From: Corallium rubrum
Taxonomy: Eukaryota > Cnidaria > Anthozoa > Scleralcyonacea > Coralliidae
Assembly: GCA_964035015.1 (NCBI GenBank)
Contig: OZ036006.1
Span: 1,176,269-1,240,268, forward strand
DNA: 64,000 bases
Direction: 5' to 3'
Each line of letters starts with the position of its first letter. Position 1 is the first letter of the stretch. Position numbers and translations under genes: made by a program. Under the pieces are notes generated by a model. The model did not search any database, was not told where the DNA came from, and saw nothing but the letters and a program-made list of their open reading frames with translations. This document shows, one piece after another, positions 213 through 47,924 of this stretch.

Positions 213-25094
<24,882 letters not shown>

Positions 25095-41777: not shown

Positions 41778-41784
41778 GTTTAAT
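41778..41784 (+). repeat. Target-site duplication GTTTAAT, left
   Basis: Seven bases immediately before the left terminus, identical to 47486-47492. Confidence 0.9.
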
Positions 41785-41821
41785 CATAGATAATAGAAGG
41801 GAGTGAGAAGGATTGGAAACT
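41785..41821 (+). repeat. Left terminal inverted repeat, 37 bp
   Basis: CATAGATAATAGAAGG to GGATTGGAAACT; perfect match to the complement of 47449-47485. Confidence 0.95.
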
Positions 41822-41964
41822 CTATTGTTCCAGGCCGACGCGCCAAAATTATGTTGAGCCGCTGGCGTTAGCGATCACGTGATGCTCAAGCGACACAGCG
41901 TTGACAGGGAAAATCAATAAATCATGTAAATACTCAGAGTTTCTTGAAACACAATGTGATTTAA

Positions 41965-44900
41965 ATGCCACAAAACTGCGCTTTTTTCAATTGCTCGTTT
42001 AGCAGAAGATACCAGGGAATAAGTTTGTTTAAAATACCAGCGAAAAAGTCGTCGGATTCAGACCACACGGCAAAAATAAAAGATGATGCCCGAGCTACCT
42101 GGAAGAATGTGATTCTCAGGACAAGAGAGGAGACGAAAGAACTGCGAGAACGCTTTAAACAGAACAACATTTATTTGTGTGAAAACCATTTTGACCCATC
42201 GCTTATTGATGAATTCCCATACGTTGACAGCCTTGGAAGAGCAAAAAGTCGGAAGATTCTTCAAACGGGAACGATTCCTGACCGCAATTTGCGACAGAAA
42301 ACGTTGGACTTGTTGACAAAAAATTCAGAAACAGCTGAAAGAAGAGTACTTGTGAAACACGAAATTCCTTCATCTTTACCTTCGTTTCCAAATCTTAAGA
42401 AGTACTTTGACAGAGATTACGACTACTTGAAAGGGTGGACAAAGAATATTTCAGAAGATTCTATAATCCTAGAACTGCGCGAAGAAGGTTTCCTCATACC
42501 AAAGTTTCATATTGAAATTTCCAAGGAACTCGATGTTTCTTTGGCTGTGTATGGAGCATCGGTGCCGAAAAGTTCTGCATTTTTTTTAAACAATTTCTCG
42601 AAAATGACTGGCAAGTTCAAGGAGTTGCATACAAATTTATACAAGCTAAACGTCTGCAAAGGAATTTTATTTCCAAATGTATCCTTTGTCTCTGAGCGTT
42701 CAAGAAATGTTTTTTGTCATGTCATCCCAATGGTAGTAGCCAAAGGCTCTACTTGTCCAGTTAATTACTCACAAGTATATCGGTCAAACAAGTGTGAAAT
42801 ACTTCTTGATGGACGTGAAAGCTGTGTCCCATGTACAAAGGCAAATGAAGAAAACACTGCCAAAAAAGAGGTTTGTCCTGCCAAAACGAGAGCGCCTCTT
42901 TCAGCGTGCTCAAGTGCAAAGTTAGTGGCCACCGTAAGAGAAGACCGAATCAAATTAAAAGAAGCTGAGCTGAAGTGCGCGCAACTTGAACAACGATTGG
43001 AAAGAATGAATACAGAGATCAACAACCATGATATACAGCTTGATGAGGGACTTCAAAAATCAATGTTGTCTATACTTAACACAACAGATCTTGCTACATC
43101 TCCGCACATGAAACTCATTTATGAACAGCAACAAAAGGCCATGATTAGCAATAAACATGGCCACAGATGGCATCCACACTTTATTGAGTTTTGTTTATCA
43201 ATCCATGCTAAGTCATCAGCTGTATATAACGACTTGAGAAGAAGTGCCAATAACCCAGATGGTCTTTTGTACTTACCACATGAAAGAACACTCAGAGATT
43301 ATAGGAACCACTTCAAGCCAGAGGCAGGATTTGTTGTAGATAATATCCTGATGCTACAAAAGATGGTCAAGGATTATAGTGGCACAGCTAAGTATGTAGT
43401 CCTTGTATTTGATGAGATGAAGATAAAGGGTCGACTAGTATTCGACAAACATTCGGGAAAGATTGTGGGTTTTACCTCACTTGGTGATCCAGAACTGGAT
43501 TTTTCCACTTTCGATGAACTGCAGATTGCAACTCATGTTCTTGCCTTTATGGTCCGAGGTGTACAAACATCACTGAAATTTATGTTAGCCTATTTTTACA
43601 CACGCACTATTGTCTCCTATCAACTTATGACTATATTTTGGCGTGCTGTGGCAATTCTGGAAATGAATTGCAAATTGTTTGTTGTTTCAGCAGTTAGTGA
43701 TGGAATGTCTGCCAACAGAAAGTTCTACAAACTACACAGGTTCATTTCTGGAGATGAAAATGAGAAGTGTATTTATAGAACCATAAACCTATTTGCTCCA
43801 CAACGGTACATCTGGTTCTGGGCTGATGTTCCACATTTAATGAAGACTTCAAGAGGTAAATATCAAAGTTGGTGGAGGGAAGGGGGTGTTCTTGCAAACT
43901 TATATGCTTTAATTTTTTTCCAAACACAGCATTGCTATTAATTATAAACATGTTCATGCAAACATAAAAAGTGCTTTGCACAGATGTCTGTTTTGTAAAT
44001 TTAAATTAAATTTTAATTTTAATAAAATTGTAAATTTCTCATTAATTCTGAGTTTGCCAACAATAGAAAAACCTTAATTTTGAATCTCTTGGGAGTCGTT
44101 TTCAGTTTGTTTCTCTGTATTTTAAGTTTATTTATATTAATAGCAACTGTGTGCTTTGTTATTTCATTGCATGTCTATCCTGAATGCCTGAATACCAGAA
44201 ATGCCCTGACAAAGCATACATAACTTTATTACTGGGACAAAGGGGTGGATCAGGGGGCATAGTTGTCCAGGTAGATTATACAATATTAGCTGAATAATTC
44301 TTTTGTCACATGATGAGCACAGCATTGATTTAGGGTGACCATGCTGTGCCCCCTCCCCCACATCCCACCCACCACCACCACACTAGACACCACCATCTCA
44401 GGTCCACCCATTTCCTATGATTGGGATACAGCATGCACATCTATGACTTTTACAAGACTTTGTACATGTACAATTTGCACTGTCAACAACATTCTGATTT
44501 TACATAAAAACTTCAACTGTTCCCAATTTAAGTTCCTATAAACTTTTTTGTTGAAGTTTTCATTCAGGATTGCCTGAGCCAATATGAAATTAAATGTTTG
44601 CAACTATTCTAGGAAAGTCAGAAATGTTTTTAAACATTTTAACTTCCTGTCAAGATTTCCTAACTTCCTAGGTGTTTTGAGCAAAGAAGAAACATCAATG
44701 ATAGCATCTTTGTTCAAAGCAGGAAGTTTACGAACACTTCCACATTCTCTAGTACATGAGTCTATCCATGGTTTATTCTATAATTTATAGGTAATCTGCA
44801 TAGTTCAGGACCAGGTTGCACTAGACTTTTGTGGAATAATGGAAAGTCTCTTTTGTGGGAACACATAACTCGGTGTTATTTTCAAGATCTAGACCTTGGT

Positions 44901-45605
44901 CTCCACCAACTTCCCAAACTTACCATTGAACATATTTATCTCACACCATATGCAAAAATGAAGGTAAACCTTGCAGTGCAAGTTCTGTCCAAAAGCATGG
45001 CCAAAGCTCTTCGTAGAACATTACCCATTGATGAGATAGCTGAAACTGCTAGATTTTGTGAAATCATGAATGACTTCTTTGATTGTTGCAATGTCAGGTC
45101 ATTGGAAGAACATACAAAGAAAAAAAATGTCCTTTTGGCTCCATACAGAATTGCAAATGATCCACGTTTTACATGGTTAAAGAATACTTTTCTGAAGTAT
45201 TTTACTGATTGGGAAGACAGTGTGAACAGTCGAACAGAATTTAAAAAGAATGCAAAACTGATGATGAAATTATCTTGGCAAACGGTTGAAGGAATCCAAA
45301 TATCAGTGAACAGTTTAATTGAATGTACAAAATATCTCCTTGAGCAAGGAATGCCCTATGTATTGACAGAAAGATTTATGCAAGACTGTTTGGAGGAATA
45401 TTTTGGGCATCAGCGCCAACGGGGTCGCCGATCAGATAATCCAGACGCTTTACAGTTTGGTTACAATGATCGCATTCTACAAATTCAAAGAAATGCTGGT
45501 TACATTCCTCATGGAAATGTTAGTGGTTGTAAACCAAAGGTTGAATCTAAATGGGTTAACATTAGAGAAGAACCTTTACCCAAAAGGAAGAAATCACAAC
45601 TTTAA
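41965..45605 (+). CDS. THAP-type P-element-like transposase, 2 exons (41965-43855, 44791-45605)
   Basis: Splicing at AGAG|GTAAAT and ATTTATAG|GTAATC joins the exons into about 901 codons without a stop. The N-terminus has a THAP-like C2CH finger (Cys5, Cys10, Cys72, His75), with GTIPDRN where THAP proteins carry AVPT. Then come a coiled-coil-like stretch (EAELKCAQLEQRLERMNTE) and the RNase-H-like core. Candidate acidic residues: Asp483 (VLVFDEMKIKG), Asp579 (AVSDGMSANR), Asp621 (ADVPHLMK, a motif of the P-type insertion domain) and Glu832 (QDCLEEYFGHQRQRG). LLWNNGKSLLWEHI follows the splice, as in P and THAP9 proteins. Expected role: DNA binding at the ends, cutting and pasting. Start chosen because the finger begins at this ATG. 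Reading through the intron would stop early at 43941. Confidence 0.93.
43856..44790 (+). other. Transposase intron with an inserted repeat
   Basis: 935 bp, GT-AG. The segment 44036-44168 (ctgagtttgccaacaataga; atagcaactgtgtgcttt) is homologous to 13711-13836 in a PEX5 intron. Confidence 0.85.
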
Positions 45606-45754
45606 AGTCTAATAAGAATGGTGGAACATTTTAATTCACTATTTTCATGATATTTGTGATGTGGCACACCTACCAGAGTACTTTCAAGTATAATTTTAGT
45701 ACTAATAGATAGAGGCAGGGGTGGTGCTAGGATTCCAAGTTCTTACTTTTTGGG

Positions 45755-45870
45755 GTTGGTAGAAATGCTAAACAGGGTCCTATAGGATCCTGTAGGATCA
45801 TACAGGATCTTGTACAAGATCCTATGGGATCCTACAGGATCCTAGTTAGGATCCTGTTTAGGATTTCTAC
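45755..45870. repeat. Array of GGATCCT palindromes
   Basis: About nine AGGATCCT/AGGATCTT-type units in 110 bp (tataggatcctgtaggatca; gatcctacaggatcc) between the two convergent genes. Confidence 0.9.
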
Positions 45871-46188
45871 CAGGGCCATAGCAGCTAGTAAACAAATATG
45901 ACATTATCAGTCACTCTGTGTTTTACATGCGTCTCTTTTTTTGATACAAGTACATTTTATCTAGTGTGAAGGCACACATAAATTGGGAAGACATTTTTTA
46001 AGGGCAGATGCAGCATCATCTGGTAGGCACTGGTCAACCTGTGGCACCACCCCTGAATATAGGATACTGGCAAAGCATTCTACATGTATATTAGGTTTAG
46101 TCACATAACATTGTCCAAAACTCTAGTAGATATAGCAGTTATGTGGGTACCTGACAATCTGCAGAGCATACTGTAATTTCTGTTTATA

Positions 46189-47283
46189 TTAAATGTTTTT
46201 CTTTAATTCTTTTCTTAAAGCTTTTTTGCGCAACTCAAGTTTTTCTTTCAACTTATACTGTGTTACAATATCTTTAGTATATGAAAATGCTCTAACTCGG
46301 ATGTACAACATTACTATGTTTTGTAAACATGCTCTAGTTGTCTCATCCTTTTCTTGAGAAGCGTCTAATAATATAGCCTCCCAAGCAGATTTTACTTTTG
46401 GGTCTTCCAAAATATCAGCACTTAATTTTGTAAGAGGGACCTCTTTCACTACTCCTTTTGTGTATTTTCTGAAGAACTTCTCACATTCAACTGCTATAAT
46501 AACTAAATTTCCACAAGGTACCCACAGTCCACCTCTAGAAAGTGAATTGATGTACTCGTTCTCATCTGCTGACTTTAAAGACAACAAAAGGCATTGGATT
46601 TGAATTTGAGTGTCGGTTTGAGAGCGATGAAACTTACTCATTCGGTACAATTTGCCAATTATATAGCCAGCAACATACGACAATGGGCCATATTCAGATT
46701 CTTCAAGTGACTTTTCAATAGCCATGCTGTCTTCGTTTTGTTCCCCTCTTTTGTAAAATGAAACAAGTAAGTCCGGAAGGTTTACCATTATTAAATTCAG
46801 AATTTCTACTGACACTGGATTAGATACCAAAAACATATTCGCACTTTGCGGGATTAATTTATATAAATTCATGAGCAGCTTGTCTCTATCACATTTCCTG
46901 CAAAACTTTGCGTAAAGATTCTTTATAGATTGTACCAGGAGTTCAGTTGGCTGAAAGGTGACAGTTGTGAAGACATTTCTAACAGCCAACCCATAGATAT
47001 CACATTTTGCTAGGGACTCCGTAGCATTTAAAAGCATTTTCTCGACACATCTCGAATCTATAGGCGATACCAATTTTTCGATGACAGTTTCATTTGGATG
47101 CTTAGCTCTGCTATGAAGAGTTAGACCAACTTTTGACTTACAGATCTTGGTGCACAGTCCACAAGGATAAGATTTAGTTCCCTCACATTCGTCTAAACTC
47201 TCAGCAAGACACTCGTCCAAACTGCCAGTCTTCTTCGTCCAAAAGACACTCCACCACTTGTTGTAGTTGCTCGACAGATCCAT
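46189..47283 (-). CDS. Second transposon gene: C2H2 finger plus P-transposase-like C-terminal domain
   Basis: About 364 codons from ATG at 47283; a GTG lies just before it and an in-frame TGA further upstream. A C2H2 finger YPCGLCTKICKSKVGLTLHS with RAKHP (Cys41, Cys44, His57, His62; CX2CX12HX4H) is followed by a helical region. Next come GPLSYVAGYIIGKLYRMS and SLSRGGLWVPCGNLVIIAVE, patterns I associate with the C-terminal part of P-like/THAP transposase-related proteins (AGY..KL; RGGLW). The basic tail is KKALRKELKKNI. It points toward the transposase gene and ends 580 bp from it. Role unknown: it could be a split-off C-terminal domain, a partner or a repressor. It cannot be a distant exon of the transposase, since it is on the other strand. 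Confidence 0.8.
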   Translation of the reverse strand: MDLSSNYNKWWSVFWTKKTGSLDECLAESLDECEGTKSYPCGLCTKICKSKVGLTLHSRAKHPNETVIEKLVSPIDSRCVEKMLLNATESLAKCDIYGLAVRNVFTTVTFQPTELLVQSIKNLYAKFCRKCDRDKLLMNLYKLIPQSANMFLVSNPVSVEILNLIMVNLPDLLVSFYKRGEQNEDSMAIEKSLEESEYGPLSYVAGYIIGKLYRMSKFHRSQTDTQIQIQCLLLSLKSADENEYINSLSRGGLWVPCGNLVIIAVECEKFFRKYTKGVVKEVPLTKLSADILEDPKVKSAWEAILLDASQEKDETTRACLQNIVMLYIRVRAFSYTKDIVTQYKLKEKLELRKKALRKELKKNI

Positions 47284-47467
47284 CACTCTGGTCAGATCTC
47301 AATTCATCACACATGCTCAAGATATAATCACTAATACGATTACCAAACCGACAAGAAAATATATTTAGCATAAAGCCAATCTGTGTCGTCTCAAGACCAC
47401 GTGACCAGGGGAAATTGAAAACAATTACTTGTTCTCGCCCCAGACCCCAGTTTCCAATCCTTCTCAC
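47201..47467 (-). other. Overlapping upstream frame of the second gene
   Basis: A - strand frame entering from the terminal repeat reads CDELRSDQSDGSVEQLQQVV then ECLLDEEDWQFG, acidic and protein-like. It overlaps the start of the 46189-47283 frame, one base out of step. It could be the true N-terminus joined by an unseen intron or a +1 shift, or simply leader sequence. Confidence 0.35.
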
Positions 47468-47485
47468 TCCCTTCTATTATCTATG
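47449..47485 (-). repeat. Right terminal inverted repeat, 37 bp
   Basis: Perfect complement of 41785-41821. Confidence 0.95.
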
Positions 47486-47492
47486 GTTTAAT
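47486..47492 (+). repeat. Target-site duplication GTTTAAT, right
   Basis: Identical to 41778-41784. Confidence 0.9.
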
Positions 47493-47516
47493 AGACTTTA
47501 GATCTTAGCACTGCAT

Positions 47517-47585
47517 AGCCTGCGTGCAGACGCTTGTATTTCCGGTGATTAATCACCGGAAATACAAGCGTCTGCATGCAGGCTG
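47517..47585. mobile_element. Short perfect palindrome
   Basis: agcctgcgtgcagacgcttg, then tatttccggtgatt, is mirrored by aatcaccggaaata and caagcgtctgcatgcaggct. About 69 bp, no loop. Confidence 0.85.
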
Positions 47586-47924
47586 AGCACTGCATAACAC
47601 TGTGATTTTGCAGCAGCCCGAGTGAACGCCTGACCAGGCGTCTTGTATGATACAGAAGGATAAGTTCCTCTTTGCGAGAACTCGGCATTGGCAACCGGGA
47701 TCTCGGCAAGGCGGATAAACATTTCCTCGTAAAAAACACTTTTCTCCGGGTAACTGGATATACCGGGAAGAATTTTCCATATTCGTTGCTTTATGTCACA
47801 TTTGTTGATGGTAATCATCTCAAATATTACAACTTGCAAAGTATATAACTCGCTTTCATATAAACAGGCCATTAGCCTTAGGAGGTGTTCACCTCCCGTC
47901 TATGCGTAAAGCCTCTTTTACAGT

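Follow-up and report, generated by a model that had tools for sequence, protein, structure and literature searches.

P elements are a founding model of transposition, and the role of the C-terminal domain (CTD) of their transposase has been hard to isolate as it resides on the same polypeptide as the remainder of the protein and its loss gives a repressor. The P element of Drosophila is described as carrying one gene for one 87-kDa protein, CTD included, and as having 8-bp target copies, while truncated P protein acts as a repressor (PMC7776569). Zebrafish Pdre2 is described with target copies of 8 bp, subterminal inverted repeats, 13-bp ends which start with CATA and one gene for a full-length THAP9 transposase (PMC10983969), and Galileo, a Drosophila element of the P superfamily, with a THAP domain, a DDE core and target copies of mostly 7 bp (PMC4168063). 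Outside this superfamily, RAG1-RAG2-like transposons are described as two convergent genes between common ends (PMC7204232), and a two-protein RAG-like element has been described in which the sea-urchin pair is called head-to-head (PMC4411706).

The element described here occupies positions 41785 to 47485 of the window, by which we mean the whole 64,000-nucleotide stretch of Corallium rubrum DNA that was analysed. It shares with the Drosophila P element a THAP domain, a split RNase H with a GTP-binding insertion, the identity of three catalytic and eight GTP-contact residues, and short inverted ends starting with CA next to short target copies; it differs in consisting of two convergent genes, in target copies of 7 bp and in an extra C2H2 finger. 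The P-type core is also common to zebrafish THAP9/Pdre2, as are the CATA start and the subterminal inverted repeats, whereas the described Pdre2 differs in its single gene and in the lengths of its target copies and ends. Galileo, as described, resembles the C. rubrum element in its target copies, THAP domain and DDE core but its inverted ends are very long and its transposase is a single segment. The RAG-like elements, in the descriptions available, have the same convergent pair between common ends, but their transposase belongs to another superfamily and gene 2 of the present element is a domain detached from its own transposase. To our knowledge, RAG2-like proteins are not known as such a detached domain. 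No two-gene P element was among the papers that literature searches brought up, Repbase lying outside the scope of those searches.

Results

The first-pass annotation, made from the sequence alone, had claimed an intact element with perfect 37-bp termini and 7-bp target copies. The termini and target copies were borne out, as repeat comparison recovered inverted repeats of 37 bp without a mismatch at 41785-41821 (plus strand) and 47449-47485 (minus strand), with GTTTAAT read on either flank (41778-41784 and 47486-47492). Within the window, the opening 27 bases of the terminus are present at two sites, both being the ends of the element. A genome-wide search for its opening 23 bases, allowing up to 2 mismatches, found them at the ends of the window copy, at the ends of a second copy, on C30, and at a single solo site on C299. 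The window and C30 copies are 99.8% identical (5687 identical positions, 13 mismatches and 5 length differences), and in neither of them are both genes open: gene 1 of the C30 copy is broken in exon 2, while gene 2 of the window copy is frameshifted relative to C30, and the description as intact was consequently abandoned. Sequencing or assembly error in either copy may be the source of these breaks.

An inverted end pair was found around both genes at 13 of the 21 loci read, the pair of L012 having been added by eye to 12 others, as its right end has a small length difference. All 13 loci with both ends have 7-bp target copies, each of a different sequence, and the idea of 8-bp target copies was dropped. 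The eight loci without a counted pair are L013, L017, L019, L020, L023, L026, L027 and L028; at L026 the left end is present, but the best match to the right end has 7 mismatches and no target copies accompany it, while L027 and L028, which lay outside the main end scan, gave no ends in an earlier end search. Within the termini of the window copy there is a left subterminal inverted repeat with a TCACGTGA core (41875-41898, plus strand) and a right one with a TCACGTG core (47381-47404, minus strand). In the window copy alone this repeat is weak, 42 of 1000 shuffles scoring equally high, unlike the CACGTG core, which recurs across element types and is convincing at that level. Among the eight types compared, with L012 and L015 counted separately though a terminus type is common to both, CACGTG is found at one or both ends in seven and is absent from both ends of L024. 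The CACGTG sites lie between each element end and the adjoining gene start.

Gene 1, on the plus strand, comprises exons at 41965-43855 and 44791-45605 with GT/AG borders around a predicted phase 1 intron (43856-44790), and the C30 copy has the same break between matches. The 901 codons are stop-free, and matches to Pfam and to 6p5a mark the product as P-type, thereby confirming the spliced transposase that had been proposed. Exon 1 encodes a THAP domain (PF05485, E 1.8e-6, scoring 29 bits where the cut-off is 23.9; Cys5, Cys10, Cys72 and His75), a helix-turn-helix-like region below cut-off and the N-terminal part of the RNase H (RNaseH_N, 1.2e-24). Exon 2 encodes the GTP-binding insertion (GBD, 2.9e-18), the end of the RNase H (RNaseH_C, 0.0011, under its cut-off) with Glu832, and a 69-residue basic tail ending in the stop, after which there is no CTD. 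By sequence, gene 1 matched the 569-residue chain of 6p5a in the PDB (E 9.1e-17), while exon 1 searched against the PDB gave no match. The catalytic residues Asp483 and Asp579, both in exon 1, were placed by motif and Glu832 by the 6p5a alignment, in which all eight GTP-contact residues reported for P (PMC7776569) are identical. With its RNase H and GTP insertion, THAP domain, DDE and GTP-contact residues, ends and target copies, the transposase of 41785-47485 is a member of the P superfamily; it departs from the canonical P and THAP9 proteins, in which core and CTD form one protein, in that the CTD module sits on the opposite strand. Viral contigs scanned with either gene 2 or exon 2 of gene 1, prokaryote contigs scanned with gene 2 and phage records scanned with gene 1 exon 1 yielded no relatives, as expected of an animal transposon. 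A single partial match to the GFP family in the genome is compatible with a cnidarian host, without proving it.

Gene 2 corresponds to the opposing frame that had been noticed on the minus strand, which is stop-free from 47298 to 46189 (369 codons, 364 from the first ATG) and contains a C2H2 pattern together with YVAGY and RGGLW. This frame is beyond chance, as 1000 random sequences from an order-2 model of this region contained no open frame longer than 223 codons and as, by codon use trained on gene 1, it scores 0.17 while none of the other five frames exceeds 0.08. The finger, at residues 42-67 of the frame (47098-47175), is matched weakly by Pfam under cut-off, and the module at 46198-46713 is homologous, by profile comparison, to the C-terminus that one-gene P-type transposases carry fused to their core. 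Near 47227 the window and C30 copies have a two-base length difference, and therefore about the first 23 codons of the window frame are out of frame. The probable true N-terminus lies in another frame at 47228-47371, where its codon score peaks at about 47305, and the C30 copy is one frame throughout (428 codons, 394 from the first ATG). The claim that the module has its own finger stands for most of the family, the C2H2 pattern being kept in 8 of 9 aligned members, but not for the L024 subfamily, in which the module is present and the finger absent.

Searches of window gene 2 gave only matches under cut-off in Pfam, with no RAG2-type kelch or PHD match at E up to 10, nothing useful in NCBIfam, and by sequence a best E of 0.52 in the PDB, with 6p5a unmatched. 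Pfam THAP9_C (PF22824) matched three of four one-gene proteins and none of nine gene-2 members at E up to 1, and Tnp_P_element_C was touched by only two of the nine (E 0.06-0.07, under its cut-off). A profile of the gene-2 family, on the other hand, aligned with the C-terminal part of the genome's own one-gene P-type proteins at a hhalign probability of 96.9% (E 1.5e-10), as against 0.1-0.3% for five shuffled controls; a single gene-2 sequence reached 85.8% (E 5.3e-6), and a profile search found the module in all four one-gene proteins. At the five loci L030-L034 no inverted ends with target copies were found in the 5.5 kb read of each, so that the one-gene proteins belong only putatively to mobile elements. 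At 19 of the 21 loci, split-type gene 1 ends 65-80 residues past the catalytic Glu, the exceptions being L013 (117) and L029 (11, through a premature stop), and the four one-gene proteins extend 267-268 residues past it.

Trees of the two genes, built from 10 two-gene loci (for L014 the first open piece of gene 1 only) and the four one-gene proteins, correlate at r = 0.86, which none of 5000 permutations attained. Between L012 and L015 gene 2 is diverging faster, with a dN of 0.30 as compared to 0.10 for gene 1; for dN/dS synonymous change is saturated between subfamilies, and the values of 0.22-1.04 among near-identical copies reflect very few changes, from which no conclusion was drawn. The homology to the fused C-terminus, the shortened gene 1, the common ends and the co-divergence together show, at the level of sequence, that part of the transposase was split off as a gene of its own, in most cases with a C2H2 finger added, as the first-pass annotation had proposed for its C-terminal module, and that the two genes have long stayed paired.

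Discussion

Sequence comparison shows these elements to form a diverse P-superfamily lineage with a split, convergent-gene transposase, and it is reasonably probable that the CTD encoded by gene 2 completes the core in trans. Gene 1 encodes the DNA-binding and catalytic core (THAP domain, helix-turn-helix region and RNase H with the GTP-binding insertion), and gene 2 the CTD, which one-gene P-type proteins carry fused to that core, usually with a C2H2 finger added. The product of gene 2 would dock on the gene-1 core to complete the DNA-cutting or inserting complex, a proposal in keeping with the placement of the CTD and its linker described in section 8 of PMC7776569. The finger may hold the CTD at the element ends, perhaps at the CACGTG subterminal sites. 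Gene 1 alone would resemble a truncated P protein, a repressor, and since each gene starts beside one end, separate dosing of the two proteins would be possible. A stricter version, an obligate two-subunit transposase whose CTD acts only in trans, whose finger sits on the CACGTG site and whose excision and insertion both need the two genes, is put forward tentatively, and we would sooner doubt than adopt it; the finger-less L024 is also the one type compared that has CACGTG at neither end.

A natural lineage with the CTD as its own gene allows the two parts to be expressed, mixed and omitted separately. Alongside the RAG-like elements, it is also an independent instance in animals of a cut-and-paste transposon made of two convergent genes, and one in which the origin of the second gene can be traced to the transposase's own domain.

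Gene 2 might instead be a transposon-encoded regulator which limits transposition, its detached CTD blocking the docking surface of the core or its finger repressing the promoters of the element. The natural repressor activity described for truncated P proteins (PMC7776569), the position of the CACGTG sites between the ends and both gene starts and the faster divergence of gene 2 are all in keeping with such a role, but it would leave gene 1 without the domain that one-gene proteins carry fused to their core, for which a mere regulator is an unlikely replacement, and in Drosophila that domain is described as touching both DNAs (PMC7776569); we regard this reading as unlikely. Less likely again is that gene 1 cuts DNA alone and gene 2 acts only afterwards, for example in choosing the target, in nuclear import or in repair: those catalytic and GTP-contact residues that were checked are kept in gene 1, which has its own basic tail at its end, yet the homology of gene 2 is to part of the transposase itself.

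That gene 2 is a host gene or a chance frame caught in a single element, as the lack of a Pfam family match over cut-off might suggest, is scarcely credible, and its standing as a passenger was ruled out by the convergent pairs, the common termini of the 13 loci, the co-divergence with gene 1 and the homology to the fused C-terminus. The genome yielded 64 gene-2 loci; at 43 of them a P-type GTP-binding domain lies no more than 10 kb away, and all 43 pairs are convergent, contradicting a chance insertion absent from all other copies. That the two genes travel together between the same termini holds for the 13 loci with both ends, but at 21 of the 64 gene-2 loci no GTP domain lies that close. 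Conversely, gene 2 is missing from 71 of the 114 GTP-domain loci (8 of these were read, the other 63 being unread). The totals of 64, 43 and 114 are hits of the first genome searches only, a few later gene-2 places being unclustered. A gene-2 place outside these counts, C1:70930810, likewise faces a GTP domain in convergent orientation, at a distance of 1.8 kb.

Structure and state of the window element

The element spans window positions 41785-47485, with perfect inverted ends of 37 bp and 7-bp target copies (GTTTAAT), and gene 1, the P-type transposase core gene on the plus strand, comprises 901 codons across two exons separated by a predicted GT/AG intron of phase 1; the termini, target copies and spliced transposase described in the first-pass annotation were all found. 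In gene 1, Pfam cut-offs are passed by the THAP domain, RNase H (N-terminal part) and the GTP-binding insertion; RNase H (C-terminal part) and a helix-turn-helix region score below them. Exon 2 aligns with structure 6p5a of the Drosophila P transposase (E 9.1e-17; matched chain of 569 residues), and the catalytic places are occupied by Asp483 and Asp579, both placed by motif, and Glu832. All eight P residues reported as GTP contacts (K385, K400, V401, S409, F443, D444, N447 and D528; PMC7776569) are identical in gene 1, as read off the 6p5a alignment. The element had been called intact, a description that does not hold for gene 2, the opposing minus-strand gene, which is frameshifted near 47227. 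Between the window element and its second copy, on contig C30, there are 13 mismatches and 5 differences in length; the C30 copy has gene 1 frameshifted in exon 2, so that neither copy, as assembled, has both genes open. At L012, a locus of a different subfamily, gene 2 reads through 439 codons in one frame, the gene 1 exon has 839 open codons and target copies are present. Positions 44034-44156, within the gene 1 intron, and 13707-13822, outside the element, share 81% identity across 123 columns and are perhaps a small repeat. Nested palindromes built on AGGATCCT lie between the convergent genes at 45757-45872, and a palindrome of 43+43 bp, 91% complementary, lies at 47508-47593, beyond the right target copy by 15 bp.

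Pairing and co-divergence of the two genes

A search of the window's own genome (474 Mb, 312 contigs) established at least 97 gene-2 matches, clustered into at least 64 loci, and at least 117 matches to the GTP-binding domain PF21788, clustered into at least 114 loci, all of these counts being lower bounds; gene 2 is a family in this genome, not the chance insertion in one copy that the first-pass annotation had named as a refutation. A GTP domain lies within 10 kb of gene 2 at 43 of the 64 loci but not at the other 21; for one of these (C1:72372502) the nearest convergent GTP domain is slightly farther away than 10 kb. The orientation is convergent in all 43 pairs, with none parallel or divergent, and paired gene 2 is as little as 27% identical to that of the window; as some loci are near-identical copies of one another, these are not 43 independent events. 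Among 21 loci read for termini (the window and 20 paired loci), 13 have inverted ends on both sides enclosing both genes, each of the 13 with perfect 7-bp target copies of its own sequence; the two genes travel together, a point that the first-pass annotation had asked to be checked. The ends start with CATAG, CACGG or CACAG, and a CACGTG core was observed approximately 75-98 bp from 13 of 16 ends representing 8 element types, as compared to a mean of 0.3 and a maximum of 3 in 1000 shuffles.

For each of the two genes a tree was built from 10 two-gene loci plus four one-gene proteins, P-type proteins of the same genome with a fused C-terminal domain (CTD). Both trees contain the groups window+L011, L012+L015+L014 and L017+L018, and patristic distances correlate at 0.86 (permutations as high, 0 of 5000); the trees disagree at deeper nodes (L017+L018, L020, L027), every one of which has a support of 0.63-0.66 in one tree or both. 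Synonymous change between subfamilies is saturated and dN is 0.10-0.36 for gene 1 and 0.30-0.53 for gene 2, values consistent with purifying selection having acted on the two genes for a long time, less strictly on gene 2.

Origin of gene 2

Five GTP-domain loci without gene 2 (L030-L034) were read next, four of which (L030, L031, L032 and L034) each have one open frame of 778-859 codons with a C-terminus extending 267-268 residues past the catalytic Glu and carrying variants of the gene-2 motifs (in L030 SYIAGYV, RGGL, E..F and YCKIR). The gene-2 family profile matched the one-gene C-terminus over 156 columns at 96.9% (E 1.5e-10), as compared to at most 0.3% for five column-shuffled controls, and matched L032 alone at 85.8% (E 5.3e-6), while a profile search with gene 2 recovered all of the set of four one-gene proteins (E 1.6e-12 to 9.4e-6). 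Pfam labels this region THAP9_C in three of the four, and five of the six THAP9_C matches in the whole genome have a GTP domain next to them in the same orientation. None of nine gene-2 members matched THAP9_C and only two touched Tnp_P_element_C, below its cut-off, and the link between gene 2 and the CTD thus rests on profiles built in this analysis. In 19 of 21 loci the split-type gene 1 continues for 65-80 residues past the Glu before it stops, mostly as a basic tail. From these sequence comparisons we conclude that the CTD now occupies its own gene, and the profile match and the short gene 1 agree with the earlier suggestion of a C-terminal module turned separate gene. A single fission event is the simplest reading, with four one-gene proteins in the tree; the opposite direction, in which two genes fused into the one-gene proteins, is possible. 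The C2H2 finger ascribed to gene 2 by the first-pass annotation stands N-terminal to the module in eight of nine aligned members and is missing from L024, which adjoins the one-gene proteins in both trees (support 0.997 and 0.915), so that the finger was either gained after the split or lost in L024.

GTP-domain loci without gene 2 number 71, of which eight (L030-L037) were read. Core and module share a strand in L030, L031, L032, L034, L035 and L036 (in L035 the module matches weakly by profile). L033 (C1:23022000-23027500) represents a separate type that lacks a THAP match and shows zinc-finger-like patterns, its plus-strand frame at 486-3506 encoding 1007 codons with a P-type RNase H_N, a GTP-binding domain and two C2H2-like patterns. 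Frames of exactly 1007 codons with identical scores recur in seven GTP-domain hits, which are probably recent copies. Related elements lacking gene 2 while active had been foreseen as evidence against the two-gene arrangement; among the eight, a split-type tail without gene 2 in the approximately 5.3 kb read beyond it was found in L037, where the gene 1 frame is broken, and, with eight of 71 read, intact split-type elements without gene 2 may exist.

Possible function and wider occurrence

The likeliest arrangement, we infer, is an enzyme of two subunits, where the CTD would be supplied to the gene-1 core in trans by gene 2. The main rival is that gene 2 acts as a regulator; in the P element a 66-kDa truncated protein is reported as a repressor (PMC7776569). 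No two-gene P element was found in a literature search judged by titles and abstract openings, with Repbase and most subscription papers outside its scope. Similar C2H2 proteins occur among unnamed cnidarian proteins, and the gene-2 family may therefore sit undescribed in databases.

THAP domains are very common in this genome, with 824 candidates, and all 150 that were scored reached E 0.001. Elsewhere in the window, a long tandem minisatellite at 10430-11972 stays open in several reading frames, for as many as 499 codons, without these being genes, and a TPR-like open frame at 23821-24162 resembles part of the peroxisomal receptor PEX5.
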